Below are positions 28,574 to 62,167 of a DNA stretch of 64,000 nt, piece after piece. A program made the translations under genes and the position numbers. The notes beneath the pieces are model-generated. The model was not told where the DNA came from. It ran no database searches and was given only the letters and a program-made list of their open reading frames with translations. Numbering within the stretch: position 1 is the stretch's first letter; every line of letters starts with the position of its first letter. The DNA lies in the NCBI GenBank assembly GCA_016187925.1, contig JACPIS010000021.1, positions 62,001-126,000 of the forward strand, given 5' to 3'. The DNA is from Opitutia bacterium (GTDB lineage Bacteria; Verrucomicrobiota; Verrucomicrobiia; Opitutales; Opitutaceae).

Positions 28574-29590
28574 ATGAAGAAAGCTCTGATCACCGGCATC
28601 ACCGGACAGGATGGTTCCTATTTGGCCGAACTGCTGCTCGCCAAGGGATATGAAGTGCACGGCGTCATCCGGCGCGCCTCGACGTTCAACACGAGCCGGA
28701 TCGATCACCTTTACTGCGACCCGCACGTCAACGGCGTAAAACTTTTTCTCCACTACGGCGACCTCGCCGATGCCGTGCAGATGGTGAAGCTCCTCTACGA
28801 GCTCCAGCCCGACGAAATCTACAATCTCGGCGCGCAGTCGCACGTGCGCGTGTCGTTCGATATTCCGGAGTACACCGGCGATGTCGACGGACTCGGTGCC
28901 GTGCGCATTCTCGAAGCCATCCGCGAGGCCGGGCTGGTGAAGAAAACCCGCTTCTACCAGGCGTCCTCCTCGGAGATGTTCGGCAAGGTGCAGGAGGTGC
29001 CCCAGACGGAGAAGACGCCGTTCTGGCCGCGCTCGCCCTATGGTTGCGCCAAGATGTACGCGTATTGGCTGACGGTGAACTACCGCGAGAGCTACAATCT
29101 GCACGCGTCGAACGGCATTCTCTTCAACCACGAGAGCCCGCGCCGCGGCGAGACGTTCGTCACCCGCAAGATCACCCGCGCCGCCACGCGCATCAAGCTC
29201 GGACTCCAGGATGCGCTCTACATGGGCAACCTCGACGCCCAGCGCGACTGGGGTTACGCCAAGGAATACGTGGAGATGATGTGGGTGATGCTCCAGCAGG
29301 GCAAACCCGACGACTACGTCGTGGCCACCAACGAGACGCACACCGTGCGGGAGTTTATTCAGGAGACGTTCGGACTGCTCGGGCTCGACTGGCAGAAATA
29401 CGTCAAGCACGACGCCCGCTACGAGCGCCCCGCCGAGGTCGACTTGCTGATCGGCGATCCCGCCAAGGCCAAGAAGCAGCTCGGCTGGGAGCCCAAGGTG
29501 AAGTTCAAGGAACTCGTGAAGATCATGGTCGATGCCGATCTGGATCTGGCCAAGCGCGAGGCCCAGATCGCGAAGCTGCCCAAACCCTGA
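28574..29590 (+). CDS. gmd: GDP-mannose 4,6-dehydratase
   Basis: 338 residues. First step of GDP-L-fucose synthesis. The NAD(P)-binding motif is [16 protein letters not shown] at the N-terminus. [14 protein letters not shown], the active-site SSSEMFG and [10 protein letters not shown] (YxxxK), and [17 protein letters not shown] are all conserved GMD blocks. The product is the substrate of the next gene, fcl, which begins 19 bases downstream. Together they supply fucose for surface glycans. Confidence 0.97.
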
Positions 29591-29609
29591 GCCCGGTCGG
29601 TTTCGGCGC

Positions 29610-30548
29610 ATGAAACTCTTCATCGCAGGTCACAACGGCATGGTCGGCGCCGCACTGGTGCGGCGTTTCTCGCGCGAGCCCGGCGTCAGCCTCCTGCTGC
29701 GCTCCCGCCGCGAAGGACTCGACCTGACCAATCAGGCTGCGGTCGAAGCGTTCTACGCCGCCGAGAAGCCCGAGGTGGCCATCATCGCGGCCGCCCGGGT
29801 CGGCGGCATCCACGCCAACAGCACCTACCCGGCGGAGTTTCTCTTCGACAACCTCGCCATCGCGGCCAACTGCATCCACGGCGCGTACCAGGCGGGCGTG
29901 AAGCGCGTCCTTTTCCTCGGCAGCACCTGCATTTATCCGAAGCACGCCCCGCAGCCGATGCCGGAAGACTGCCTGCTGACCGGGTCGCTCGAGCCGACCA
30001 ACGAGGCCTACGCCATCGCCAAGATCACCGGCCTCAAGCTCGCGCAGTTCTACCGGCGGCAATACGGCGTGCTCTACCATTCGGCGATGCCGACCAACCT
30101 CTACGGTCCGGCCGACAACTACCACCTGCAGAATTCCCACGTGCTGCCCGCGCTCATCCGGAAGTTTCACGAGGCGAAGGAAGCGGGCCGCCCCGAAGTC
30201 GTGGCCTGGGGCACGGGGACGCCGAAGCGCGAGTTCCTGCATGTCGACGATCTGGCCGACGCCTGCGCCTTCCTGCTCCGGCAGGAGAATCCGCCCGATT
30301 GGCTCAACGTCGGCACCGGCACGGATGTCACCATCCGGGAGCTGACGGAAATCGTCGCGTCGGTCGTGGGTTTTCAAGGCCGCATCACGTGGGACAGCTC
30401 CAAGCCCGATGGGACTCCGCGCAAGCTCGTGGATGTTTCGAAGCTGACGGCGTTGGGCTGGAAGGCCCGCATCGGTGTGCGCGAGGGCATCGAGCTGACG
30501 TATCGGAGTTACCTGGCCGAGAAAGCCGCCGGCACGTTGCGAACCTGA
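29610..30548 (+). CDS. fcl: GDP-L-fucose synthase
   Basis: 312 residues. Epimerase/reductase converting GDP-4-keto-6-deoxymannose to GDP-L-fucose. It has [13 protein letters not shown] (nucleotide binding), [17 protein letters not shown], the catalytic [18 protein letters not shown] and YAIAKITG (YxxxK), and [24 protein letters not shown]. The ATG at 29610 opens the first beta strand. It forms a two-gene unit with gmd. Confidence 0.97.
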
Positions 30549-30712
30549 GCCGGAATCCGGCAATGGCGGGTGGCGCGCGTCCGACCGCCTGAGTGCGCCG
30601 CAATGTTCCAGTCTCTGCGCGGAAGCGCCGATTCCCGCATTGTTCCGGCTGGGCGCACGGCGCGTTTCCGGCCTCAAGGCCGGACCCGACTGTGACGATG
30701 TCAGGCAGATAC

Positions 30713-33349
30713 ATGTCTGCCGATGTCACCGCTGCAGAAGCGTCCACCCGTGCCCCGACTTTGCCTCCCCGGGCGAAGCCTGCGCGCGTAACCGCCGGCG
30801 AAGTCTGGCGGGGTGACTACGAGGTGGTCACGCCCTTCGGCGCTCCGGCGGGCCGCTGGTTCCGGGCGGTTCGCCTCCGCGACAGCCGGGAGGTCTGGCT
30901 CCGGGTCAGCAGTGCGGCCACAGCGGCGGAGCGCGACCGCGTCTGGCAAAAACTTGTCCAGTTGAAATCGCCCCGCCTGCAGCGGCCGCTCGAGGCGCAC
31001 GATGGCATCGAGCGCGTCGAGGTGTGGGAGGCCCCCGACGGCATCCCGTTGCGCGCCGCCCGGCAAAGCCGTGGAGCCCCCGGCCGGGGAGAAATCACCG
31101 CGCTCGTGCGGCAGCTCGTTCCGGCGCTCGAAGCCCTGCATGTCGCCGGCTTGGGACACTTTGGTTTGAACCTGGAAAATCTCTTCGTGCGGGATGGCGA
31201 TTCCGGCGTGGAGTTCATCCTGGGCGGATTCGACTCGACCGAACTGCTCGAGCAGGAGGGGCTCGTGCCGATCACGGTCGATCCGTTTTTCGCTCCGCCC
31301 GAAGCGGCCGGTTTGTTCAAGCACACGCCCGGGGCCGCGCTGGCGTCCTGGGACTGGTGGTCGCTGGGCCGCATCCTGCAGGAATACTTCCTCGGCTTCC
31401 ACGTCATCGCCCTGCTTTCCGCGGCCGATCGGGCCCGGCTGCCCCGCGACCTGCCCGCGCAGGCCGAGGCGCTGCTGTTCGAGCGCGACACCGGCACGCT
31501 GCGCCCCGGCGGCGTGGAATTGATGGACGGGCTCGATGCCGCGACGGCTCTCCTGCTCCGCGGCTTGCTCACGGGAGCGCGGGATGCGCGCTGGAGCGCC
31601 GCCGAGGTGCAGGCGTGGCTGGCCGGCGAAACGCCCGAGGAACGCTACAACCTGCCGCGCACCGAGCGGCTCTTCCGCTGGCGGGGCAAGGGCTACACCG
31701 TGGCGGAGGCGGCCCAGCTCTTTCGCGGACCGGAGCATTGGCGCGAGGCGGCCGCCCAGATCTTCGAGGACAGCAGGGAGGATACGCTGGCGTTTTTCCT
31801 GCGGGAAACCCGGGCGCACAAGCAAGCGCACGAGCGCGTGCAGACGCTGGTGCAGCTGGCCCAGAGTCCCACCCTGCGGGTGTTTCCCGAAGCGCTCCTG
31901 CGCGACGTGATCGCCGCGCTGGCGCTGCAGGCGTTGAGCGGGGGTGATTTTCTCTGGCGCGGCCTGCCGCTCAGCGCGGTGCGGTTGCGCGCCCAACTCG
32001 GCCGGGCGGACCAGGCCGGACAGACCCGCGCGGAGCTGGGCGCCCTGGCTGCGCCACCGGTGCTGCCGCTGATGCACGCGCAGGATCCGGCGGCCGGCCA
32101 GTTGTTGGAAACGCTCGTCAAGACGGCCATGGAAGCGGAAGGGATCATGGCCCGAAGCGCTCCGGGCAAAGCGGGCGCGAAGCACGATCCGGCCGAGCTG
32201 TGGCTGCTGGCGCTCGAGCCGGAGAACGTCCTGGCGAAGGCGCACGACAAGCTGCGCGAAGGCTACGCCTGCAGCACCGTGCCGGCGCTGGAGAAGATTT
32301 TCACCGCGGCGCAACCGACGCGCGGCATGCTCGTCGTGCTGGCGTGGGCCGGACGCGAGCCGGGCCGCCACGGTTTTCTCACGCATGCCGAGATGAAACG
32401 CCGCCGGCTGGCGCAACTGGCGGAGCGCGGGCGGTGGCTGGCGCAGTTGATTTTCTGGCTGCGCCTGGAGCGCGTGCTGCGGGCCGGACCGCTGCTTTTC
32501 GGCCGGCGCTGGTTGCTCGCGGCTGGCTGGCTGGCCTTGGTGCTGACGCTGGCGGTGCACGAGCCCGGGTTGGGCGGAGTGGCGCTGGGCCTGCTGCCGG
32601 TGGGCGCGCTGGCTTTGCTGCGCCTCGGTGCCGGCTGGTGGCAGGCGCGGGTCGTGCGCAAATGGGCGCCCGGGGCGGACGCCTGGACCTGGCGCGCCGG
32701 CCGGGAGCGCTGCCGGACCGAAGCCGCGAGTTTCGCCGGGCAACACGGCTTGCCGGACACACTCGGTGCGGCAACGAAGCTTTTCGGCGAGCTCGGCGGC
32801 GAGATGAAGGCGCTCGCGCGTCCTGAGCCGGTCGATCCTTTGCCGCGTCCCCCGCGCCACGCCGTCGGCTGGCTGGCCGTGGGGCTGAGCTGGGTCCTGG
32901 CCGCGGGCTTGGTTGCGGGCAGCGCCTGGCGCGCGGCCCGGCACCCGCCCTCGTGGGTGGCGCATCAGGCGGCCTGGCGGGCCTTGCTGCCGGCGCGGCC
33001 GGCACCGGAAACTCCACCGGCCGGGGACGTGAAGATTTCATGGCCTTACCGCGAGCCGCTGGAAACACCCTTCGAGATCACCGTGCAGGGCGCGTTCACG
33101 CCGACGGGAGCGCAGCTGGCGGCGGCGATCGCCCGCGGCCGGGGGTTTGTGCAAGGCTACAAGCCGGAGACCATCACCAGTTACATCGCCATCTACGTTC
33201 CTTTGGAGGGCGACAAGGGCGGGCTGCTGCTCTTCGACGGCAAGCGCGGGGTGATGATGGGCCGCAACGGCGTGCTGATCAACTTCGTGCCCCTCACAAA
33301 AACGTGGATGCAGATCGGGGACCAGCGGGCGCTTTTCATAGAAAAGTAG
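30713..33349 (+). CDS. Pseudokinase-domain membrane protein 1
   Basis: 878 residues (an ATG at 30698 is an alternative start). Residues ~35-230 have the outline of a Ser/Thr kinase: YEVVTPFGAPAG glycine loop region, APPEAA (194-199) and DWWSLGR (214-220). The catalytic residues are gone: the beta-3 lysine position is arginine (VWLRV, R64), HRD is HFG (HFGLNLENL, 149-157), and DFG is GGFDS (171-175). A helical middle follows, then three predicted membrane helices at ~600-615, 621-640 and 718-737, and a soluble C-terminal domain of ~110 residues. It is paralogous to the protein at 33798, with a TM2 protein gene between. No known family name applies; a scaffold or sensor role is inferred. Confidence 0.75.
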   Translation: MSADVTAAEASTRAPTLPPRAKPARVTAGEVWRGDYEVVTPFGAPAGRWFRAVRLRDSREVWLRVSSAATAAERDRVWQKLVQLKSPRLQRPLEAHDGIERVEVWEAPDGIPLRAARQSRGAPGRGEITALVRQLVPALEALHVAGLGHFGLNLENLFVRDGDSGVEFILGGFDSTELLEQEGLVPITVDPFFAPPEAAGLFKHTPGAALASWDWWSLGRILQEYFLGFHVIALLSAADRARLPRDLPAQAEALLFERDTGTLRPGGVELMDGLDAATALLLRGLLTGARDARWSAAEVQAWLAGETPEERYNLPRTERLFRWRGKGYTVAEAAQLFRGPEHWREAAAQIFEDSREDTLAFFLRETRAHKQAHERVQTLVQLAQSPTLRVFPEALLRDVIAALALQALSGGDFLWRGLPLSAVRLRAQLGRADQAGQTRAELGALAAPPVLPLMHAQDPAAGQLLETLVKTAMEAEGIMARSAPGKAGAKHDPAELWLLALEPENVLAKAHDKLREGYACSTVPALEKIFTAAQPTRGMLVVLAWAGREPGRHGFLTHAEMKRRRLAQLAERGRWLAQLIFWLRLERVLRAGPLLFGRRWLLAAGWLALVLTLAVHEPGLGGVALGLLPVGALALLRLGAGWWQARVVRKWAPGADAWTWRAGRERCRTEAASFAGQHGLPDTLGAATKLFGELGGEMKALARPEPVDPLPRPPRHAVGWLAVGLSWVLAAGLVAGSAWRAARHPPSWVAHQAAWRALLPARPAPETPPAGDVKISWPYREPLETPFEITVQGAFTPTGAQLAAAIARGRGFVQGYKPETITSYIAIYVPLEGDKGGLLLFDGKRGVMMGRNGVLINFVPLTKTWMQIGDQRALFIEK

Positions 33350-33426
33350 CCGCCGGTCGCCCGGAGGTTTGGTTGGACAAGCGGGGGTGCTTCGGACAGA
33401 AATCCCCGCACACACCCACTACCTCT

Positions 33427-33690
33427 ATGAGTGACCCCAAACCCGCTGGTGCAGACAAGAAAATCGCTGCTGGCATCCTGGGCATCCTGCTCGGTGCGCT
33501 CGGCATCCACAAGTTCATCCTCGGTTACACCAAGGAAGGCGTGATCATGCTGCTGGTGACCGTGCTGACGCTCGGTTTCGGCGGTTTCATCATGGGCATC
33601 ATCGGCCTGATCGAGGGCATTCTTTACCTGACGAAGGGCGACGACGAGTTCGTCGCGACCTACGTGACGGGCAAGCGCGGCTGGTTCTGA
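33427..33690 (+). CDS. TM2-domain membrane protein
   Basis: 87 residues. Two hydrophobic helices with the TM2 motif GALGIHKFILGYTKEGVIMLL, then GFIMGIIGLIEGILYLTKGDDEF. TM2 proteins are small and of unclear function; in bacteria the domain is often attached to, or encoded beside, kinase-like and signalling proteins. Here it lies between two paralogous pseudokinase genes (77 bases after the first, 107 before the second), which suggests a membrane complex. The ATG at 33427 is the obvious start; longer frames upstream overlap the first pseudokinase. Confidence 0.88.
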   Translation: MSDPKPAGADKKIAAGILGILLGALGIHKFILGYTKEGVIMLLVTVLTLGFGGFIMGIIGLIEGILYLTKGDDEFVATYVTGKRGWF

Positions 33691-33694
33691 GTCT

Positions 33695-33726
33695 GGGCGA
33701 CGCGACCCCGGCATGGGGTGTCGCCC
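33695..33726 (+). other. GC-rich hairpin after the TM2 gene
   Basis: GGGCGAC...ACCCC (33695-33709) pairs with GGGGTGTCGCCC (33715-33726), leaving a GCG bulge and a GGCAT loop. It starts 5 bases after the stop codon and has no T-run, so it may be an mRNA 3' stabiliser or attenuator rather than a classical terminator. Confidence 0.5.
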
Positions 33727-33765
33727 GGAGCGAAAGCGGCTAAAGTCCGCGGCCCAGAGCGACGA

Positions 33766-33788
33766 AATAGGGTGAGGCTCACCTTATT
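33766..33788 (+). promoter_or_regulatory. Leader hairpin just upstream of pseudokinase 2
   Basis: AATAGGGTGA (33766-33775) pairs with TCACCTTATT (33779-33788), including one G-U pair, around a GGC loop. It ends 9 bases before the ATG and covers the purine-rich stretch that would serve as ribosome binding site, so it could restrain translation initiation. Confidence 0.45.
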
Positions 33789-33797
33789 CCGCGCGCC

Positions 33798-36629
33798 ATG
33801 TCCGAACTCAATTCCGGGTCCGGGGAACTGGACGTTCCTCCCTCTGCCGATGCTGCTGCGTCGGGCGCCACCCCCTGCCCGGAGACGACGGGCGGATGCC
33901 CGTTGGCCGCCGGATTGCGTTGGCGCAGTTACCAGATCGAGGGCCCGTTGGAGCCCGGACCGGCCAATGCCTTCACGGCGATGAACGTCGGGCTCATGGA
34001 GCGCGTGCTGATCCGCGCGGTCCCCGTCACCGACGCGACGGAATGGCGGCGCGGAGCGTGGGAGCGGCTTGCCCACCAATTGCCGGCCGACGCGCGCGTG
34101 CTGCCGTGCTTGGAAGCCTTTGAAGAGGACGGCTGGCGCTACGAGGTTTCGCAGGTGCCGCCCACGGCGACCTTGCGCGAATGGTTCGCGTGCCACAAGG
34201 CGGACTACAACGCCGTCAAATCGCTGCTGAGCCTCATCGCCAAGACCCTCGGTGCGCTGCACGCGCAGGGCGTGGTGCACCTCAATCTCCGGACCGACAC
34301 CATCCACATCGACGACTCGGGCGACCACGTGCAGCTCGTCTTCGGCGGCTTGGAGGCGGCCACGCTCTACACGCAGTCCGATCTGGGCGTGCTGCAACCG
34401 GACTTCTTCTACGCTCCGCCCGAGGCCGCGGAAAAAAGCCTGCTGCGGCCGGGCACGGCCTTGTGCGCCTGGGACTGGTGGTCGGTCGGACGGATCTTGC
34501 AGGAGTTCGTGCTCGGGCGGCACGTGATGAGCGTGCTCTTCGGCGCCGATATCACGCAGCCGACGCCCGAATTGCGTACGCGGGCCGAGGCCCTGCTGCG
34601 GGAGCGCGAGCCGCCCGGCCTGCGGGCCGGAGCGGTCGAGGCGATGGGGCCGATCGACAAGGACCTCAAGGTCCTCCTGCGCGGCCTGCTCTCGGGTGCG
34701 CCGGAGGCACGCTGGGGTGGCGATGCGGTCAAGCGGTGGTCGGCCGGCGAAAAGGTGTCCAATCACTACGACCTCGCGCGCAACGCGCGCTTCTTTGCGT
34801 GGAAGGGCCGGGCGCTTTCGCTGCCGGAGGCCGCGGAGTTTTTTTCCACCGAAGAGAACTGGGCGGAGGGCGAGGAGAATCTCTTCGATCCGGGCAATGC
34901 CGAGACGCTCGCGCACTTCCTCTCGACCGTCCCGGCGCACCACGCCGACTGGCAAAAGCTCCAGCAGCTCTACGTGGCGGCCGAGTCGCCGGAGTGGGGC
35001 GGGGTGCCGCCGGTGGCCAGCCGCACGGTCATCGCGGCTGCGGCCTGGCTGACCCTGGGCCGTCAGCCGGGTTCGCTCATTTTGCGCGGACGGTCGATCG
35101 ATGCCGCGGGCCTCGCCGGTTTGCTGAGCAATCCCGAGGATTTCTACCATTGCGCGCTGGTGCTGGCGCTGATGTCGGCGCCGTTTCTCCGGTTGATCGA
35201 GAAACTCGATCCGGCGGCGACCGGCTTGCTGCGCCAGCTGGGGCAGACGAGCCACGAGGCGCTGCGCGCGGCGGAAACGCACGGGTGGCTGGCGCCCGGC
35301 GATATCGGAGCGCAGGCGCGGCTGCTGCAGCTTTCCCTCGAGCCCGCCGAAGCGATGCGGGCGCGGGTGGAGCGCATCCGGAGCAAGTTCGCCAGTTGCC
35401 GCGACGCCGAGCTGGCCCGTTTGCTCACGGAGAAACAGCCGGCGCACTGGGCGGAGGTCGTGCTGGCCTTCACGAGCGAGCAGCCCGACCGCTTCGGCTA
35501 CATCACCACGGAGGAGTATGCCCGCCAGCGGCTCGCCGAGCTGGAGGATCACGGGCGACGCCTGCGCGCGGCGGTGTTTTGGCTGGGAGCCCGCCGGGCA
35601 CTGCGGGTGGGCACGCCGATCACGGGATCGTGGCGGATCTTCCTCGGCTTCTGGCTGGCCGTCGTGGCGGTGGGAGGGCTGGTGGTCCGTGATCCCGGCA
35701 CTACTCTCTGGCTCGCGCTCGGCTTGCTGGCGTTGCGCGGGCTCGTGAGCTGGCGGGTGGGAAGGGTCGCCAGACGGATCGACCGCAGCGCGATGCCTTG
35801 GGGCTGGCGCGACAATCCCGAGCGCGGCGTCACCGAGGCGCGGCGTTCGTGGCCGGAGGCGTCCGCGGCGGACTTGCCCCGGCTCAAGCGCCAGCTCGCC
35901 GGGACGCTCTCCGCCATGCAGGCGCTCCGGCCGGAGGCACCGCTTTCGGCGACCTGCCATGCCCCGGAGCTGACGGAGGTCTGGCTCGGCCACGCGGCGG
36001 CGGCGCTCGTGTGTTTCGTCGGCTTCTTCCAGCTGGCCATGAGTTATTACCATCCGGATGCCACGCCGCTGCTCGTGCGCGGTCTCGGCAAGGCGGAGCG
36101 CATCGCCGGGCTGGCGCCGGCGCAACCATCCGTCGTCGCCCCGGCCGCACGCACGCCGGGGAAATCCGTGCCGCTTTTGCCGGACCTGCCGGGCCTGCCT
36201 CCCGGTCTCGCGGAGAAAATCGCATCGGGCGAATACGAACTCGTGAAGGACGGTTTTGGCCGGACGGTGCGCGGACCGCTGACCAAATGGGATTTGGCGC
36301 CGCCCGCGGTGGTCGCCTCGCTGCCGGTGGAGTCGCGGGCCCCGGCCACGCCGGCGCAACGGGCCTTTGCCCTCGTCAGCGGCGAACTGCTCCTCCAGCC
36401 CTACGCCCACAACGCCGTCAACGCCCTGCTCATCATCCGCGTGCCCACCAAGGATGGCTACGGGCTCATGATGTACAGCGCCCGCGACCGCAAGTTGCTC
36501 GACGGCGACACGCTTTACCTGCGCAACCCCGTGGCGGACCGCACCTGGTACCGGTTCGATCAGCGCAACGTCGTCTACCTCGGCGTGCCGGCCGAGCTGG
36601 AAAACGAAAATTCCCTTGCGCTGAAGTGA
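33798..36629 (+). CDS. Pseudokinase-domain membrane protein 2
   Basis: 943 residues, paralogue of the protein at 30713 with the same order of parts. The kinase-like domain (~45-240) keeps APPEAAE (206-212) and DWWSVGR (226-232) but has arginine for the beta-3 lysine (VLIRAV, 70-75), HLNLRTDTI in place of HRDxKxxN (161-169), and GGLEAA in place of DFG (183-188). Predicted membrane helices are at ~613-630, 635-651 and 729-749. A proline-rich linker leads to a C-terminal domain with similar strands (ALLIIRVPTKDGYGLMMYSARDRK). A matching TEEYARQRLAELEDHGRRLR segment precedes the helices in both. Catalysis is very unlikely. Confidence 0.78.
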   Translation: MSELNSGSGELDVPPSADAAASGATPCPETTGGCPLAAGLRWRSYQIEGPLEPGPANAFTAMNVGLMERVLIRAVPVTDATEWRRGAWERLAHQLPADARVLPCLEAFEEDGWRYEVSQVPPTATLREWFACHKADYNAVKSLLSLIAKTLGALHAQGVVHLNLRTDTIHIDDSGDHVQLVFGGLEAATLYTQSDLGVLQPDFFYAPPEAAEKSLLRPGTALCAWDWWSVGRILQEFVLGRHVMSVLFGADITQPTPELRTRAEALLREREPPGLRAGAVEAMGPIDKDLKVLLRGLLSGAPEARWGGDAVKRWSAGEKVSNHYDLARNARFFAWKGRALSLPEAAEFFSTEENWAEGEENLFDPGNAETLAHFLSTVPAHHADWQKLQQLYVAAESPEWGGVPPVASRTVIAAAAWLTLGRQPGSLILRGRSIDAAGLAGLLSNPEDFYHCALVLALMSAPFLRLIEKLDPAATGLLRQLGQTSHEALRAAETHGWLAPGDIGAQARLLQLSLEPAEAMRARVERIRSKFASCRDAELARLLTEKQPAHWAEVVLAFTSEQPDRFGYITTEEYARQRLAELEDHGRRLRAAVFWLGARRALRVGTPITGSWRIFLGFWLAVVAVGGLVVRDPGTTLWLALGLLALRGLVSWRVGRVARRIDRSAMPWGWRDNPERGVTEARRSWPEASAADLPRLKRQLAGTLSAMQALRPEAPLSATCHAPELTEVWLGHAAAALVCFVGFFQLAMSYYHPDATPLLVRGLGKAERIAGLAPAQPSVVAPAARTPGKSVPLLPDLPGLPPGLAEKIASGEYELVKDGFGRTVRGPLTKWDLAPPAVVASLPVESRAPATPAQRAFALVSGELLLQPYAHNAVNALLIIRVPTKDGYGLMMYSARDRKLLDGDTLYLRNPVADRTWYRFDQRNVVYLGVPAELENENSLALK

Positions 36630-36653: not shown

Positions 36654-37797
36654 ATGATCGCACCCGAAACCTTTTCTCACCTCGAGAACATCAAGAAGCG
36701 CGCCGGCTACTTGTGGAGGTTTCTTTGACGTCGAGCAAAAACAACGCGAGATAGAGGCGATGGAGGCGGAGATGGGCGCTCCGACCTTCTGGGACAACAA
36801 CGAGCGCGCCCAGAAGCACATCGCCAAGCTCAACGGCCTGAAACGCGCCATCGGGGGCGTCGTGGCCTTCAACAAGAAGCTCGATGATGCCGCCGTCATG
36901 GTCGAGCTCATCGAGTCCGCCGAGCCCGCCGAGCAGGAGGCCTACGCCAAGGAGCTCGATGCGCAGGTCACCCAGATGGTCGAGGAGCTCGACAAGCTCG
37001 AGATCTCGTCCTTCCTCACCGGCCAGTTCGACAAGAACAACGCCATCCTCTCCATCCAGGCGGGCGCGGGCGGCACCGAGTCGAACGACTGGGCCGACAT
37101 CCTTTTCCGCATGTACTCGCGCTGGGCCGAGCGCCGCGGCTACGAGCTCGAGGTGCAGGACGTCCAGCCCGGCGACCAGGCGGGCATTTCCAAGGCGACC
37201 ATCCTCATCAAGGGCGAGAACGCCTACGGCTACGTCAAGGCCGAGCGCGGTGTCCACCGCCTCGTCCGCATCAGTCCCTTCGACGCCAACAAGCGCCGCC
37301 ACACCTCGTTCTGCGCGGTCGACGTGATCGCCGAGATCAACGAGGACATCGACATCGAGATCCCCGACAGCGAGATCCGCGTCGATGTCTACCGCTCCTC
37401 CGGCAAGGGCGGCCAGGGCGTCAACACCACGGACTCCGCCGTGCGCCTCACGCACATCCCGACCGGCATGGTGGTCGTCTGCCAGAACGAGCGCTCGCAG
37501 ATCAAGAACCGCGCCAGCGCGATGAACGTCCTCAAGGCCCGCCTCTACGAGAAGAAGCTCGACGAGCAGCGCAACGAGATGGAAAAATTCTACGGCGACA
37601 AGGGCGAGATCGGCTTCGGCAGCCAGATCCGCAGCTACGTGCTCCAGCCTTACCAGATGGTGAAGGACCTCCGCACCGGCGTCAGCACCAGCGACACGCA
37701 GGGCGTGCTCGACGGCGACCTCGACCGCTTCATCTCCGCCTGGCTCCGCGCGGGCTGCCCGCGCCACCGCAACAAGGACATACAGATGGACGACTGA
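36654..37797 (+). CDS. prfB: Peptide chain release factor 2 (programmed +1 frameshift)
   Basis: RF2, about 380 residues after frameshifting. The first 24 codons run from ATG 36654 to CTT 36723-36725, followed by an in-frame TGA (36726-36728). Reading resumes one base later at GAC (36727). The site is preceded by an internal Shine-Dalgarno-like GGAGG (36715-36719) and reads CTT TGA C, the classical autoregulatory arrangement. Downstream are the SPF stop-recognition tripeptide ([15 protein letters not shown]) and the GGQ loop ([12 protein letters not shown]). Low RF2 favours slippage and so more RF2. Annotation from the internal ATG at 36760 would lose the N-terminus. Confidence 0.96.
36715..36729 (+). 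promoter_or_regulatory. RF2 programmed +1 frameshift site
   Basis: GGAGG at 36715-36719, then TTT CTT TGA C. The slippery CTT occupies the P site when TGA reaches the A site; skipping one T brings GAC into frame. The sequence matches the conserved prfB recoding signal. Confidence 0.92.
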
Positions 37798-37798
37798 C

Positions 37799-37882
37799 GG
37801 AGGACAGATGACGCAAAGCAGCGGACAGTTTGTGCTTTGGGCGATTCGGGCTTCTGTCCGCAGTTCTCCGTCCTCTGTCCTC
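37799..37882. repeat. Imperfect inverted repeat with CTCTGTCCTC units
   Basis: GAGGACAGA (37800-37808) is complementary to TCTGTCCTC (37874-37882). The right side repeats related units (TCTGTCCGCAGTTCTCCGTCCTCTGTCCTCTG). It fills the 96-base gap between prfB and the ATP-grasp-like gene and is low in complexity compared with its surroundings. Confidence 0.55.
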
Positions 37883-37893
37883 TGATTTCCGCC

Positions 37894-39315
37894 ATGCCCA
37901 ATCTGTCCTACGACCAGCTCAAAGCCGCCCTCGGCGCCCAGTCCCTGTTCGAGGACAAGACCTGGCAGCTCTCGCCGCGCGCCTGGCCGCTGACGCCCGA
38001 GCAGAAGGCGCAGCTCGAGCAGATCGGCACGGCCTGCCTGGAATTTCATCAGGCGCTCGAGACGCTTTATCTCCGCTCCGTGGCGGGGAAAAACCTCCTG
38101 CGCAACAAGCCGCTGCTCGCCCCGTGGGTCGCCGATTATCTCGACCGCGGCAAGCCCGCCGAGCTGGTCGCCCACGCGCGCCACGCGCAGAACCGCGGCG
38201 CGTTCCCCACTGTGTTGCGGCCCGACCTGCTGCTCACCGAGGAAGGTTTCGCCCTCACCGAACTCGACTCCGTGCCCGGCGGCATCGGCCTGACGGCGTT
38301 CCTCAACCGGCTCTACGGCGGCGACAAGGACCCGGCGGTGCTCGGCCACGGCGACGCGATGATCGAGAATTTCCACCTGTCGCTCGCCGGCCTGCGCCCC
38401 GCGGCGCGCAATCCCCTGATCGCGATCCTGGTGAGCGACGAGGCCGGCACCTACCGGCCGGAGATGCTGTGGCTCGCCGAGCAGCTGCAACGGCTCGGTC
38501 GGCGCGTCTATTGCCTGCGCCTCGACGATGTTTTCCCGCTGGGCGGCGAGCTGTTCTTCGACATCGAGGGCACGCCCGAGAAGATCGACATCATCTACCG
38601 CTTCTTCGAGCTGTTCGATTGGGCCAACATCAAGGTGGCGCCGCACATCATGGAGGCGTGGGAAGCCGGGCATGTCGCCATCGCGCCGCCGATGCGCCAT
38701 TTCCAGGAGGAGAAGCTCACGCTCGCGCTGTTCCACCACCACCTGTTGCAGGAGTTCTGGCAGGAGAACCTGCCGCGCCGCAGCCACGAGCTGTTGCGCA
38801 AGCTCATCCCGCAATCGTGGGTCATGGACCCGGCGCCGCTGCCGCCCGGCGCGGTGCTCGACGGCCCGCGCGCCGGCGGGCGGGCGTTGAACGACTGGCG
38901 CGACCTCGCGGGCGCGTCGCAGAAGGAGCGCGACCTCATCATCAAGATTTCCGGCTTCCACGAGACGGCCTGGGGCGCGCGCAGCGTCGTGCTCGGCAGC
39001 GATTGCTCGCGCGAGGAGTGGCAGGCCGGCGTGGAGCAGGCGCTCAAGCTGGCTTCGGCCAACCTGCACGTGCTGCAGGAATACCGGAAGCCCAAGCGCG
39101 TCGCGCACAATCTCTACGAGCCGCGGGAAGACGGCGTGCCGGGCGAGTCCGTGCCGAAGCACGGCCGGCTCCGGTTGTGTCCGTATTTCTTCGTCGTGGG
39201 CGGGCAGGCGCGCCTGTCGGGAGCGCTCGCGACGTTCTGTCCGCCGGATAAAAAAATCATCCACGGCATGCAGGATGCGGCCTTGCTCCCCAGTAGGGTT
39301 TCCTCCTTAAGTTGA
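37894..39315 (+). CDS. Conserved protein, possibly of an ATP-grasp-like fold
   Basis: 473 residues, with no signal peptide or membrane segments. TVLRPDLLLTEEGFALTELDSVPGGIGLT resembles the metal/nucleotide-binding strand pair of circularly permuted ATP-grasp enzymes; FFDIEGTPEKIDIIYRFFELFDW, IKISGFHETAWGARSVVLG and HVLQEYRKPKRV follow. A glutamate-amine ligase-type activity would fit this but is only a guess. The stop codon is 4 bases before the GTG of the large Sel1/LysM gene, implying co-translation. The ATG at 37894 is preferred over 37837. Confidence 0.45.
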   Translation: MPNLSYDQLKAALGAQSLFEDKTWQLSPRAWPLTPEQKAQLEQIGTACLEFHQALETLYLRSVAGKNLLRNKPLLAPWVADYLDRGKPAELVAHARHAQNRGAFPTVLRPDLLLTEEGFALTELDSVPGGIGLTAFLNRLYGGDKDPAVLGHGDAMIENFHLSLAGLRPAARNPLIAILVSDEAGTYRPEMLWLAEQLQRLGRRVYCLRLDDVFPLGGELFFDIEGTPEKIDIIYRFFELFDWANIKVAPHIMEAWEAGHVAIAPPMRHFQEEKLTLALFHHHLLQEFWQENLPRRSHELLRKLIPQSWVMDPAPLPPGAVLDGPRAGGRALNDWRDLAGASQKERDLIIKISGFHETAWGARSVVLGSDCSREEWQAGVEQALKLASANLHVLQEYRKPKRVAHNLYEPREDGVPGESVPKHGRLRLCPYFFVVGGQARLSGALATFCPPDKKIIHGMQDAALLPSRVSSLS

Positions 39316-39318
39316 CGC

Positions 39319-42300
39319 GTGCGTAAGCCCGCCGTCTCCCACCGCGAAATCCCCCGACCCCTGGCGCCCAAGGCGCTGTTGCAGCTGCTCGCGCTCGGAT
39401 TGATCGGTCTCTCGGCCCCGCGGGCTTTCGCCCAGCCGGCCGCGCCCATCGATGTCGCCGCGGTCCGCCAGCGCGCGGACAAGGGCGACCCCGACGCGCT
39501 GAACACCCTCGGCAATCTCGCGACGGCCGGGCAGGGCGGGTTCCCGCAGGACTATGCCGAGGCGCTGAAATGGTACCGGGCCGCGGCGGAGAAAGGCTAC
39601 GCCCCGGCGCAGTTCAATCTCGGCCTGGCTTACGAACTCGGGCGCGGCGTGCCGACCGATGCGAAGCAGGCTTTCCGTTATTACCTGATGGCGGCGGAGC
39701 AGGGCTTCGGTCCCGCGCAGTTCAACGTCGGCAACATGTACGCCGCGGGCCAGACCGTGGCGCAGGATTTTTTCGAGGCCAACGTCTGGTACAAGCAGGC
39801 CGCCGACAAGGGTATCGTCGAGGCGCAGTTCAACCTCGGTCTGGTCTACGAGGCCGGCCGCGGCATCAAGAAGGACGAGACCCAGGCGGCCATCTGGTAC
39901 AAGGTCGCCGCCGACCGCGGCTTCGCGCGCGCGCAGTACAACCTCGGCTTGCTTTACGAGGACGGCCGCGGCGTGCCGCAAAACGATGCGGCGGCGGTCG
40001 CGCTCTACCAGAAGGCGGCGGAGCAGGGCTTCAGCCCCGCGCAAAACAATCTTGGCCTGATGTATTTCGCCGGCCGCGGCGGATTGAAGGCCGATCCATC
40101 ACTCGCCCACGCGTGGCTGAGCCTCGCCGTCGAGGGCGGCGCCACCCCGCAGGGTCGTGATGCCGTGGCGAAGTCGCTGGATACCGCACAGCTCGCGCAG
40201 GCCGGGCAGCGTCTGGCCGAACTGCGTCAAAATCTGGGCCACGCCGTCGCTCCCGCGGCGGCGCAGGCTTCGGCCGCCCCGGTCGTGCCCGCGGTTTCCG
40301 GCTCGGACAACACCGCCGCGCTCACCGCGCAGGTGCGCCAGCTCACCGAGGCATTGCAGCGCGCGCAGGAGGCCAACAACCGCTTCGTCGAGATCAACCA
40401 GCAGCTTGCCCTCGAGAAAACCCAGTCCGAGGACCATGCCGCGCGCGACGCCGCCGAGAAGAGCCAGCTCATCACCCGGCAGCGCGAGCAGCTGGAGGCG
40501 GCGACGAAGCGCGCCGAGCAGCTGGCACTTCAGCTCGGCGAAACCGTTGCCGCCCGGCAGAAGATCGAGACCGAGAAAGCCGATCTCGAACGCTGGTCCA
40601 AATCCCTCGAGCAGTCACTCAACGACAGCAATGCCAAGCAGGCCGGCGGAAGCGATGAGTTGGGGAAGCTCCGCCAGCAACTCGTGGACGTGCGCCAGAA
40701 ATTGCAGGAAGCGTCGGCCAAGGACGCGCGCATTGCCGAGCTGACCGAGAACATCTCCCGCCTGCAGGACGATCTGGCGAAGTCCCGCCAGACCACCTCC
40801 AGCACCACCGCCGAGAAGTCCGTCGCGCCGGACGTGCGGGCCTTGCAGGATGAAATCGCGCGTCTGCGGCGCACCGCTGCCGAGGCCGGCAGTCTCCGCG
40901 CCATGAACGACCGGTTGGAGAAGGAGAACAAGCGTCTCGCCGCCGGCTCGCCCGATAAGGAGGAGCTGGCCGGTCTCCGGAACCAGGCCGCTGATCTGCA
41001 GGCCCAGCTGACCGCCGCGCAAGCCGCCGCCACCAGCGCGCAGAGCGAGGGGGAGAAGCTCCGCGGCCAGCTCGCCGCCGCCGGACAGACGGGCGGCGAC
41101 AAGGACCAACAGCTGGCGCAGCTCCAGCGCGACCTCGACACGGCGCAACAGCAGGTGCGGCAGTTGTCCGAGCAGAATGCCAAGCTCGCCGCGGCCACGC
41201 CGCGCGACGACGCAGCCTTGGTGGCCGCGCGCAAGCAGGCCGGCGATTTGCAGGCCCAGCTGGCGACCGCCGAGGCTGATCGAGCCAGCATCCGCGAGGA
41301 TGCCCTCAAGATCCGGCAGGAGTTGGCGGACGCGCACGCCCAGCTCGCGGCCCAGCAGGCGGACAATCGGCAGCTGCAGGCGCAGTTGAAGTCCGCCGGT
41401 GAAAACAATTCGACTTCCGGGGCGGCCACTGCGGAGCTGCAGACGAAACTCAAGGCGGCCGAGGCCGCCGTTGCGCAGTCCGAGGGACGCCTTGCCGAGC
41501 TGCAAAAGCAATTGGGCGACATCCGGGCCGCGCAGACCACGGCGCGCGAGGAGGCCGGCCGGACCCTGGCGGACCTGCTCAGCGTCCGGCAGTCGCTCAA
41601 GGACAAACAGACCGAGGCCCGCCAACTGGCCGACGCGAACGCCCGCCTCAAGAGTGATCTCGCCACGGCCCAGCAAGCCGGCAAGGGCAGCACGAGCGCC
41701 CAGAAGGAGTTGGCGGCGCTGCGGACCCAGGTGGAGGAATTGATCGCGGAGAACCATCGCCTCACCGATGCGGCGGGCAAAAGCGGCGCGGGGACGGCCG
41801 ATCTGCGCCGGCAGCTCGCCGAGGCCAACCAAGCTTTGGAAAAGAGCGGGGCCAGCGTGGCGGAGTTGACCGGGACGAATGAACGCTTGGAAAAAGAACT
41901 GGCCGCGGCCAGGCAACAGGCCGAGCAGGCCGCCGCGCCGAGCGAGGAGCTGTTGCGCTTGCGGCGCACGGCGGACGAAATCACCGCGCTGCGGAGCGAG
42001 AACCAGCGGCTCAAGGCCGCCACCGCCGACACGAGCGCGCTCGACGCCGCGAAGGCGCAGGTCGCCGACCTGCAGAAGCAGCTCGACGAAGCGCGCGTCG
42101 TGACGGTTCGCACCCGGCCCGGGGCCGAGGAGGAGGCGCTGAAGAAACAGCTGGCCGACGCCAACGCGGCCGTGGAAAAACTGAACGCGCAGGTGGCCGA
42201 TCTCACCGGGACGAACGACCGGCTGACCAAGGATCTCGACAACGCGAAGAAGACCGCCGAGGCCGCGCTCGCCGCCCAGTCGCAGGCCGTCGCCGCCAAT

Positions 42301-43632
42301 CAAAACGATGCCTTCAAGACCGAGATCAACACGCTGCAGGCCCGCATCAAGGAGCTCGAGGCGTCGGGCGAGGAGGAGCGCAATGCCACCGCGAAGGAGA
42401 TAGGCAATCTGGCCGGCCAGCTCACGCGGGCGCGGGAAACGAACAAATCGCTCACCGAAGCCAATCGCGCGCTACTTTCCGCCAAGCAGGCCGACGACGC
42501 CCCCAACCGCGCCGAGTTCGAGCAGGCGCAAGCCAAAGTGCGCGACCTCATCGCCGCGGGTGAGGAGATGCGTCGCCAGGTGCAGCAGCTCTCCGATGCC
42601 AACGAAAAGGCGTCGACCGAGCGCGATGCCCTGAAGCAGCAGCTGGCCGACGCGCAAAAGGAGGCCGATTCGCACGGCACCTCCGTTGCGGAACTGACCG
42701 GCACCAACCAGAAACTCGAGCAGGAGCGCAGCAATCTCAAGCAGCAGGTCGACACGTTGACCGCACAGCTGGCGGCAGCGCAAAAGAGTACGAGCGCCGC
42801 GTCGGGCAAGCTCGCCGAGGAAAAGACGGCGTTGCAGGAGCGGCTCGAGGCCGTGGGCGGCCAGCTCATCAAGGCGCAGGCCGACGTGGATTCGCTCCAG
42901 AAGGAACTCGCCGACACGCAGGCCAAGGCCCTGGCGGAGAAGCAGACGGCCGACAAGGCGCAGGCTGATCTCGCCGCCTTGCAGACCCGCGCCGCCGAGG
43001 CCGAGAAGGCCGCCGTGTCGCACAACACTTCCGTGACCGAGCTGACCGAGGCCAACACCAAGCTGGAGGCCCAGGTCGCCGACCTGCGAAAGCAGCTGGA
43101 GGCACAGCGCACCGAGGCGGCGCGGCTGGGCCAGGTGGCGCGCAGCGCGGATCTTTCCCGCGGCGAGGCCGAGCGCAACGCGACGGCGAACGTCAACGCC
43201 ATGGCCGGCCAGTTGGTCGAGGTCCGGCGCGACTTGGAGAATCTCCGTGCGGCCAACGCCCGGTTGATCGAGGCCAACACCGCCCTCGAACGCGAACGCG
43301 CCACGACGATGGTGCAGCTGCGCGAGGAGAACCGCTCGCTGACGGCGCGGCTCACCCAGGCCCAGGGCACGCTTGACCAGATCGCCGCGGCGGCCCGGCT
43401 CGGCACGCCTGCCGCACAGATCGCGTCGGGCGGCGCGGTGCCGACCGTGCGCACGAGCCCGGCCGTCGCCGAGGCGCGCTTTCACACGGTGGTGGAGGGC
43501 GATTCGCTCTCGCGTATCAGCCTCCGTTACTACGGCACGGCGAACCGCTGGCAGGAAATCTACAACGCCAATCGCGATCTGCTGCAGGGCTCCAGCGCCC
43601 TGCGCGTCGGCATGCAGCTGCGGATTCCCTAA
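39319..43632 (+). CDS. Giant Sel1-repeat / coiled-coil / LysM envelope protein
   Basis: 1437 residues from a GTG start, with a signal peptide ending AFAQ (about residue 35). Residues ~55-290 are Sel1-type TPR repeats (units like ADKGIVEAQFNLGLVYEAGRGI). Roughly 310-1370 is one very long heptad-rich coiled coil, rich in A, Q, E and K, with recurring ELTGTN and AELRRQLAEA units. The last ~50 residues are a LysM domain (FHTVVEGDSLSRISLRYYGTANRWQEIYNAN). It is probably periplasmic, anchored to peptidoglycan by LysM, with Sel1 as a protein-binding module. The coiled coil could span well over 100 nm, more than the periplasm, so it must fold back, multimerise or lie along the wall. Confidence 0.85.
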   Translation: MRKPAVSHREIPRPLAPKALLQLLALGLIGLSAPRAFAQPAAPIDVAAVRQRADKGDPDALNTLGNLATAGQGGFPQDYAEALKWYRAAAEKGYAPAQFNLGLAYELGRGVPTDAKQAFRYYLMAAEQGFGPAQFNVGNMYAAGQTVAQDFFEANVWYKQAADKGIVEAQFNLGLVYEAGRGIKKDETQAAIWYKVAADRGFARAQYNLGLLYEDGRGVPQNDAAAVALYQKAAEQGFSPAQNNLGLMYFAGRGGLKADPSLAHAWLSLAVEGGATPQGRDAVAKSLDTAQLAQAGQRLAELRQNLGHAVAPAAAQASAAPVVPAVSGSDNTAALTAQVRQLTEALQRAQEANNRFVEINQQLALEKTQSEDHAARDAAEKSQLITRQREQLEAATKRAEQLALQLGETVAARQKIETEKADLERWSKSLEQSLNDSNAKQAGGSDELGKLRQQLVDVRQKLQEASAKDARIAELTENISRLQDDLAKSRQTTSSTTAEKSVAPDVRALQDEIARLRRTAAEAGSLRAMNDRLEKENKRLAAGSPDKEELAGLRNQAADLQAQLTAAQAAATSAQSEGEKLRGQLAAAGQTGGDKDQQLAQLQRDLDTAQQQVRQLSEQNAKLAAATPRDDAALVAARKQAGDLQAQLATAEADRASIREDALKIRQELADAHAQLAAQQADNRQLQAQLKSAGENNSTSGAATAELQTKLKAAEAAVAQSEGRLAELQKQLGDIRAAQTTAREEAGRTLADLLSVRQSLKDKQTEARQLADANARLKSDLATAQQAGKGSTSAQKELAALRTQVEELIAENHRLTDAAGKSGAGTADLRRQLAEANQALEKSGASVAELTGTNERLEKELAAARQQAEQAAAPSEELLRLRRTADEITALRSENQRLKAATADTSALDAAKAQVADLQKQLDEARVVTVRTRPGAEEEALKKQLADANAAVEKLNAQVADLTGTNDRLTKDLDNAKKTAEAALAAQSQAVAANQNDAFKTEINTLQARIKELEASGEEERNATAKEIGNLAGQLTRARETNKSLTEANRALLSAKQADDAPNRAEFEQAQAKVRDLIAAGEEMRRQVQQLSDANEKASTERDALKQQLADAQKEADSHGTSVAELTGTNQKLEQERSNLKQQVDTLTAQLAAAQKSTSAASGKLAEEKTALQERLEAVGGQLIKAQADVDSLQKELADTQAKALAEKQTADKAQADLAALQTRAAEAEKAAVSHNTSVTELTEANTKLEAQVADLRKQLEAQRTEAARLGQVARSADLSRGEAERNATANVNAMAGQLVEVRRDLENLRAANARLIEANTALERERATTMVQLREENRSLTARLTQAQGTLDQIAAAARLGTPAAQIASGGAVPTVRTSPAVAEARFHTVVEGDSLSRISLRYYGTANRWQEIYNANRDLLQGSSALRVGMQLRIP

Positions 43633-61666: not shown

Positions 61667-62167
61667 TCAGCCGCGCTTGTCTAGTTTCAAGGTTTCTTCA
61701 ACGGGGAAGCCATGCTGAATCAGCCACTGATTTATAGCTAGTTGAGAAATAGGAAGCAAAGGGTGCCAATACTGTCCGTGTGCATAGTGCAATCTCCCCA
61801 CCAGTTCACCCTTTCTGTAGAAGGCCAAATTAAAAAGCCCATAGCAGCCATGCGCTAACTTTGGCATCCGTGAGTCGAACATAAGAAGTTCAAAGAATAC
61901 GTCTGAATCAGTGATGGATTTATTCGCATATATGAGACTCTCCAGCACCCGCTTCTCGCCATATTCAAAAGAACCGTCCTTATTCATCTTTTTTGGATAA
62001 GACACCCACTTTTCTGCCAGGGTCATCCGTATTTCATCAAAGCCCCGCAACTTCTCCTCCCAGCTCTTGAATTCTTGAGCAGTGTAATACGCAGGTTTTG
62101 TCTCACCTTCTTGTGCGAAGACGGATACGTACAAGAGGAGGCAGATCAGATTTACGAGAAGACGCAT
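61667..62167 (-). CDS. Secreted protein of unknown function (lower-GC gene)
   Basis: 166 residues. A signal peptide (MRLLVNLICLLLYVSVFAQ) precedes a mature domain with WEEKLRGFDEIRMTLAEKWVSYPKK, an aromatic HGCYGLFNLAFYRKGELVGRLHYAHGQYW centre and INQWLIQHGFPVEETL. No family is recognised. Its GC content is well below that of the neighbours, suggesting a transferred gene. It begins 23 bases after the E1 fusion stop on the same strand. Confidence 0.65.
   Translation of the reverse strand: MRLLVNLICLLLYVSVFAQEGETKPAYYTAQEFKSWEEKLRGFDEIRMTLAEKWVSYPKKMNKDGSFEYGEKRVLESLIYANKSITDSDVFFELLMFDSRMPKLAHGCYGLFNLAFYRKGELVGRLHYAHGQYWHPLLPISQLAINQWLIQHGFPVEETLKLDKRG

Follow-up and report, generated by a model that had tools for sequence, protein, structure and literature searches.

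Two large, related genes lie on either side of a small TM2-domain gene in an Opitutia bacterium of the Opitutaceae, and the question this locus raises is whether the three form one signalling system or are neighbours that act separately. The locus is in contig JACPIS010000021.1 of assembly GCA_016187925.1, and the window analysed is the 64,000-nucleotide stretch from position 62,001 to 126,000 of the forward strand. The large genes are referred to here as KA and KB, and all three are transcribed from the plus strand between fcl (5') and prfB (3'), with gaps of 77 bases between KA and the TM2 gene and 107 bases between the TM2 gene and KB. An earlier note, made from the sequence of the window, had described them as a pseudokinase-TM2-pseudokinase cassette. 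Our analysis leads to a different answer, which we consider probable: KA and KB come from a conserved family of pseudokinases that is restricted to its lineage and anchored in the membrane, and whose members serve as non-phosphorylating scaffolds or receptors, one protein at a time and with no TM2 cassette. The features concerned are as follows.

30713..33349, plus strand: KA, membrane pseudokinase of clade A, 878 residues (open reading frame (ORF), alignment to KB, Pfam, tree)
30794..31633, plus strand: putative pseudokinase domain of KA, approximately residues 28-307 (alignment to KB; Pkinase 27.5 bits, below cut-off)
32504..32917, plus strand: predicted membrane segments of KA, a hairpin at about 598-638 and a segment at 717-735 (hydropathy for 620-638 and 717-735; first helix from the alignment to KB)
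33427..33690, plus strand: TM2-domain protein, 87 residues, judged a bystander (PF05154, 44.6 bits)
33798..36629, plus strand: KB, membrane pseudokinase of clade B, 943 residues (ORF, alignment to KA, Pfam, tree, AlphaFold)
33909..34751, plus strand: predicted pseudokinase domain of KB, residues 38-318 (Pkinase 33.3 bits; VIA Z 23.1 to 4yom_B; Foldseek E 5.7e-10)
34752..35609, plus strand: predicted helical module of KB, residues 319-604 (AlphaFold, predicted local distance difference test (pLDDT) mostly 87-97; little or nothing from searches of Pfam and of PDB sequences)
35631..35780, plus strand: predicted membrane hairpin of KB, helices 612-630 and 633-661 (AlphaFold, hydropathy)
35973..36047, plus strand: predicted third membrane helix of KB, 726-750 (AlphaFold, hydropathy)
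36201..36605, plus strand: C-terminal domain of KB, residues 802-936, predicted periplasmic (AlphaFold, pLDDT mostly 74-95; profile match E 3.5e-6)

The length of KA is counted from an ATG, and its reading frame is also open from an upstream GTG at 30593, which would give 918 residues. KA and KB align end to end with 30% identity (E=3e-85) and, judged by this alignment, are paralogues over their whole length, so that reading frames, coordinates and identity all agree with the earlier description of paralogous 878- and 943-residue genes flanking a TM2 gene on one strand. The TM2 protein scores 44.6 bits against PF05154, above the cut-off of 27.9, and is a member of that family. Against PF00069 (Pkinase, cut-off 31.7 bits), KB scores 33.3 bits and lies above the cut-off, and KA scores 27.5 bits and lies under it.

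An AlphaFold model of KB, built with an alignment of 21 sequences, has a mean pLDDT of 82.9 and a predicted template modelling score (pTM) of 0.58, and in this model residues 38-318 are predicted to form a bilobal protein-kinase fold. The segment matches the SAD kinase 4yom_B with a VIA Z of 23.1 (3.0 Å over 245 residues) and the bacterial kinases PknA and PknB with a VIA Z of 22.2; a Foldseek search gives E 5.7e-10 and places the pseudokinase TRIB2 19th, and the family profile matches kinases among PDB sequences at E 1.7e-12. The kinase-shaped N-terminal domain that had been claimed for both proteins, and whose test was to be structure prediction, is therefore recovered for KB (VIA Z of about 23), and for KA the same fold is probable from its 30% full-length identity to KB.

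The motifs of KA are VWLR at beta-3, HFGLNLEN at the HRD place and GGFD at the DFG place, followed by FAPPEAA and WDWWSLGR; those of KB are VLIR, HLNLRTDT and GGLE, followed by YAPPEAA and WDWWSVGR. On re-reading they are just as first reported, with the beta-3 Lys replaced by R, HRD by HFG or HLN and DFG by GGF or GGL, and with APPEA and WDWWS-x-GR retained. The family set comprised 78 sequences, 44 after removal of duplicates, aligned with ten ordinary kinases as a yardstick, and 41 members were counted once three had been set aside: L053 lacks a kinase part, L088 is kinase-like and linked to WD40, and L130 is an Acidobacteria kinase whose motifs are intact. Neither the HRD Asp nor the DFG Asp is present in any of the 41 non-redundant members; the DFG column can be shifted by one residue each way, and no Asp appears in either setting. 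The beta-3 Lys occurs in one of 40 members (L086, VIIK) and is replaced by Arg in 19 of the 40, 12 different residues being found at this place, and the last catalytic-loop Asn persists in 3/41 (KA, L119 and L125). All ten yardstick kinases have HRD or HCD, DFG and the Lys, and we rejected assignment to the active Ser/Thr kinases, given that both Asp residues are present in these ten and in none of the 41 members. As read from the motifs, loss of catalytic residues is family-wide, KA and KB are triple-degraded (VAIK Lys, HRD Asp and DFG Asp), and phosphotransfer by either protein is predicted to be absent. The full-length matches of profile A4 among 387 genomes of the phylum and 372 of the order, with up to three candidates scored per genome, were all already members of the motif table, and no intact kinase with the same post-kinase part was seen among the A4 matches. 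We note that L086, the sole member with a beta-3 Lys, has nonetheless lost HRD and DFG, and that L088 (1-2607, minus strand), which is kinase-like, carries HQDISPRN and NFS and ends in WD40, may be either an intermediate or a distinct pseudokinase.

The genes are nevertheless maintained. Pairwise ratios of non-synonymous to synonymous substitution (dN/dS) over residues 38-943 range from 0.106 to 0.348 in eight pairs, rough values given that dS exceeds 1 in two of them, and constraint in the kinase C-lobe is no weaker than in the rest of the protein; ratios of 0.11-0.35 therefore point to purifying selection. Conservation is strongest in the C-lobe, which has 30 columns conserved at ≥90% versus 4/81 in the N-lobe, and its peak is the stretch running from APPEA to helix F, where 14 of 58 columns reach that level; PPE, WDWW-GR and the R-W at 305-306 are conserved at ≥95% across 38 sequences. 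The helical module has 6/286 columns at ≥90%.

After the kinase, the KB model has the helical module, the membrane hairpin, a 60-residue linker, the third membrane helix, a low-confidence linker and the C-terminal domain. The helical middle and small C-terminal domain of the earlier note thus correspond to residues 319-604, confidently predicted as helical, and 802-936. Its three membrane helices at matching positions are found in the model of KB, at 612-630, 633-661 and 726-750, but hydropathy at a threshold of 1.6 shows two in KA (620-638 and 717-735), the first KA helix being placed by alignment with KB; at the same threshold KB has three segments, one of which (449-467) falls in a helix of the soluble module. 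At a threshold of 1.3, the 37 full-length members have three segments past residue 450 in 23 cases, four in 10, two in 3 and five in 1. Pfam scans of the post-kinase part in 21 members gave no match below E 0.01, with no PASTA or other named domain found in the outside part, and a search of PDB sequences gave no match at E ≤ 1. A structure search, with the module searched together with the rest, gave no Foldseek match at E ≤ 0.001 and a best VIA Z of 6.0 on long helices.

A profile of the C-terminal domain matches the end of a 210-residue ORF product in G325, another member of the class, at E 2.9e-4, and at E 3.5e-6 in a search of 6007 ORFs. This product (L175, 1498-2130, minus strand) begins with a lipobox-like Cys pattern, which resembles a lipoprotein signal, and has a glycine-rich middle ahead of its C-terminal-domain-like end; sharing of the domain with such a protein fits a periplasmic place for it in KB. 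A search for the lipoprotein in 57 relatives returned matches mainly to the glycine-rich middle and not to the shared end. KB has an Arg-rich stretch after its second membrane helix, which fits both the positive-inside rule for membrane topology and a periplasmic C-terminal domain. The kinase and helical parts would accordingly be cytoplasmic and the C-terminal domain periplasmic.

Does the TM2 gene belong with these proteins? We scanned 252 genomes of the taxonomic family, taking as pseudokinase carriers those with a row at E ≤ 1e-30; 39 genomes qualify, 111 match at E ≤ 0.001, and beyond the 39 the matches listed cover the kinase domain only. TM2 relatives are present in 23 of the 252 genomes (60-100% identity, one of them a fragment), and two genomes have both, when 3.6 would be expected by chance (one-sided Fisher p=0.90). 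Within the stretches examined, which differ in length, TM2 lies beside none of 39 other non-redundant family loci, and a family gene lies within about 1.5 kb of none of 22 other TM2 loci. Among the first 20 genomes checked, a TM2 relative was found in G032 only (75% identity), approximately 1.95 Mb from the pseudokinase of that genome. Since TM2 neither co-occurs with the family above chance nor adjoins it elsewhere, it is best read as a passenger between KA and KB, and the order of the proposed cassette is not conserved. The broader statement that TM2 domains often accompany kinase-like proteins also found no counterpart here, as a pattern test detected no ORF with HRD and DFG within about 1.5 kb of any of the 22 other TM2 loci; a role as a general kinase companion was set aside, no such ORF being found by pattern in 17 kb around the G032 TM2 gene either. 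TM2 is patchily distributed (23/252), with relatives of the 33427-33690 gene in loci L132-L152 being 60-90% identical among distant genera, which hints at transfer.

The pairing of KA with KB is likewise not general. A tree of 39 sequences, from which L046, L052, L053, L129 and L130 were left out, contains two old groups: group A includes KA and has 16 members at support 0.993, and group B includes KB and has 21 members at support 0.936, of which 19 are grouped at 0.996. The nearest relatives of KB, L109 and L110 (48-50% identity), are each a single gene between fcl and prfB, and those of KA, L049, L050, L122 and L125 (43-51%), are single genes at other locations; KA and KB are best explained as ancient paralogues that are neighbours here by chance. 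With up to three candidates scored per genome, copy numbers are lower bounds: at least six of the 39 carriers have two family genes (G000, G001, G006, G016, G026 and G182), and in G005 one gene is split across two contigs. Both clades are shown in three carriers, that of the window (G000), G001 and G006, and in the latter two the genes are far apart. G026 probably holds a further tandem pair, arranged as fcl-PK1-PK2, as indicated by a 33-base contig-end overlap; some 50 bases and no TM2 separate the two genes, and both copies fall in group A (weak support, 0.78). A single family gene per genome is the usual form; pairing occurs, but neither generally nor always of A with B, and single-copy proteins may form homodimers.

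These observations bear directly on the proposal of a KA-KB heterodimer, formed through the membrane together with TM2, that senses or scaffolds as a unit. Three adjacent genes on one strand with short gaps, together with the apparent tandem in G026, speak for such a complex, but the absence of TM2 from every other family locus examined, its chance-level co-occurrence, the megabase separation in G032, the few carriers with both clades and the lack of TM2 between the G026 genes make it very unlikely. We therefore reject a TM2 cassette, for which there is neither synteny nor co-occurrence beyond chance (2/252, p=0.90), and an obligate KA-KB heterodimer is itself unlikely with both clades shown in so few carriers.

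Members of the family frequently share a neighbourhood. Both fcl and prfB are present in at least 15 of 39 other loci, and one of them in five more (flanks of 1.5 to 10 kb, so that these are lower bounds), with tatC at no fewer than seven of the 39. Since groups A and B both occupy the fcl/prfB slot, an ancestral A-B tandem there is possible. In 11 stretches around prfB from genomes without a family gene there (G116 has one elsewhere), the slot holds unrelated genes, for example an enolase-family enzyme, a histidine kinase, part of a carboxylase, or tatC. With contents so variable, we do not read position as function, and a functional link to fcl or prfB was rejected. A scan of 84,980 species for WDWW[ST][LV]GR, which finds only members with that motif, identified 22 loci, of which 20 are labelled Verrucomicrobia, Opitutia, Opitutaceae, Opitutus or Didemnitutus, one (L119) 'bacterium', and one is L130, the Acidobacteria non-member with intact catalytic motifs. 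One full-length match, in G319, falls outside the taxonomic family but within the class, and a lineage-restricted family is the best reading of this distribution.

We suggest that the pseudokinase C-lobe, as the most conserved part, could provide the platform on which a cytoplasmic partner docks, and that a signal or ligand at the periplasmic C-terminal domain might alter docking without transfer of phosphate, with three helices between the outside domain and the inside helical module and dead kinase. TM2 would have entered between KA and KB as a passenger. A more specific version, which we advance only tentatively and regard as possible rather than expected, is that the family constitutes a new class of one-protein transmembrane receptor, whose periplasmic domain, also present in a small lipoprotein, senses the envelope and drives a cytoplasmic platform of pseudokinase and helical module that has at no time transferred phosphate in this lineage; if true, information would cross the membrane via a kinase fold with no phosphorylation whatever. 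Several points weigh against the scaffold or receptor interpretation. The pTM is just 0.58 in both AlphaFold runs, leaving the arrangement of domains uncertain; hydropathy by itself yields three segments in just 23/37 members; and the lipoprotein link is one protein and a lead only. Tandem pairs occur twice, in the window and in G026, and paired action is thus possible in some species. Arg at the beta-3 Lys place is, according to the available text of PMC12599244, compatible with nucleotide binding in some pseudokinases, so that its presence in 19/40 members leaves an ATP-dependent role possible.

That Arg also favours the idea that the fold has been repurposed for a different chemistry, as is known for SelO (AMPylation) and SidJ (glutamylation) (PMC12599244, in part). 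The metal-binding Asp is missing at the HRD and DFG places in 41/41 members, however, and the motif places compared have no family-wide replacement (12 different residues among 40 members at beta-3, the loop Asn in 3/41), and we regard such an enzyme as improbable. A somewhat stronger, although still unlikely, alternative is that the pseudokinases are allosteric regulators of the active Hanks-type kinases of the genome, as in some eukaryotic pairs; just two other Pkinase matches are present, at 145.8 and 141.0 bits and with motifs intact (C44, HRDLKPSN and DFG; C19, HRDVNPKN and DFG), and so small a kinome makes specific pairing testable. Phosphorylation of the pseudokinase by an active kinase, with the phosphate read by an FHA protein as for MviN, has a parallel in the triple-dead pseudokinase of that membrane protein (PMC12599244, in part), but the genome has no FHA (PF00498) match at E ≤ 0.001 in a search whose control was positive in 6 of 14 genomes; other phospho-readers are possible, and we give this scheme very little weight. 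Decay of former kinases into proteins without function could account for the free variation of catalytic residues, but with full-length frames, the low dN/dS in all eight pairs, a C-lobe constrained no less than the rest and strongly conserved structural columns, it is largely refuted and scarcely credible. A scaffold or receptor that does not phosphorylate is the reading we retain.

How does this family relate to known systems? PknA, PknB and StkP share its fold and its plan of cytoplasmic kinase, membrane anchor and outside domain, whereas in KA and KB the catalytic residues are lost and no PASTA or other named outside domain was found. Weak kinase-domain matches link KB to the defence kinases MkoA (E 1.3e-8) and MAD6 (NCBIfam, E 6e-6); these end at the kinase domain, and a defence system was rejected, with no search aimed at other defence genes. 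In MviN the pseudokinase follows a large transporter-like membrane part. The families described in PMC12599244, of which a part was available, are ActPs1, ActPs2, ActPs3, GLW, CP1, DYD and DLHK, plus EssB. MviN/ActPs3 resembles KA and KB in being a membrane protein with all three motifs degraded and a dimer and docking role (PMC12599244, in part), but is actinobacterial, has an FHA reader and carries its pseudokinase C-terminally, unlike the N-terminal pseudokinase of KA and KB, in whose genome no FHA was found. EssB/YukC is likewise a cytoplasmic, triple-dead pseudokinase joined to the membrane with a non-catalytic scaffolding role, but is a monotopic Firmicutes protein with one membrane pass, whereas the KA/KB family has a helical module of about 285 residues and three predicted membrane helices (PMC12599244, in part); a Pfam scan at E ≤ 1 gave no YukC family for KA or KB, Pkinase being the sole Pfam family to cover the region, and no search was aimed at secretion genes. 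ActPs2 shares Arg at the beta-3 Lys, loss of the HRD Asp and a membrane segment after the kinase, but is actinobacterial, with insertions of 32 and approximately 250 residues in some 90% of its members (PMC12599244, in part); KA and KB have about 25 residues from the DFG place to APPEA and lack the ~250-residue activation-loop insertion. GLW pseudokinases share a C-terminal membrane segment but are proteobacterial, with GLW in place of HRD and poly-Leu at beta-3 (PMC12599244, in part), as set against HLN, HLG or HLR and R or C at these places in the present family; GLW occurs at the HRD place in 0/41 members.

Set apart by the descriptions in the available text, the KA/KB family does not fit the bacterial pseudokinase families of PMC12599244, whose text contains none of the words Verrucomicrob, Opitut and Planctomycet. 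Searches of mostly open-access literature for pseudokinase with Opitutaceae found nothing, and with Verrucomicrob no title on such a family, the nearest dating from 2012 and concerning a selenoprotein kinase-like domain. The 'undescribed membrane signalling system' of the earlier note hence survives, within the literature searched, as an undescribed pseudokinase family, but not as a three-gene system with TM2.

The genes flanking the locus, and two further downstream, are these.

29532..30548, plus strand: fcl, Epimerase PF01370 (Pfam), upstream neighbour in many family loci
36654..37797, plus strand: prfB, release factor 2 (Pfam), downstream neighbour, with frame listed from 36760 and apparent leader ATG at 36654
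37837-39315: 492-residue protein 3' of prfB, with no Pfam match at E ≤ 1 and with relatives, about 70-82% identical, next to prfB at many loci
39319-43632: 1437-residue protein that has Sel1 repeats and a long middle part resembling a coiled coil and ends in a LysM, with locus relatives from about 1000 to more than 2100 residues

The fcl product is presumably GDP-fucose synthase-like. The prfB leader starts 24 bases past the KB stop, and a +1 frameshift is apparently needed at CTTTGA near 36724, which we take to be the known self-regulation pattern of RF2.

Bacterial pseudokinases are mostly unexplored, and the review PMC12599244 (in part) deals mainly with those of actinobacteria, proteobacteria, cyanobacteria and firmicutes. 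The present result corrects a more striking claim of a three-gene cassette, and the genome, with two other kinase matches and no FHA found, offers a simple setting in which to ask what a pseudokinase binds. A Verrucomicrobiota family that has lost both catalytic Asp residues in every member examined, and that keeps its structural core together with a new helical module, would be a clear instance of the kinase fold being kept for a role other than phosphotransfer.

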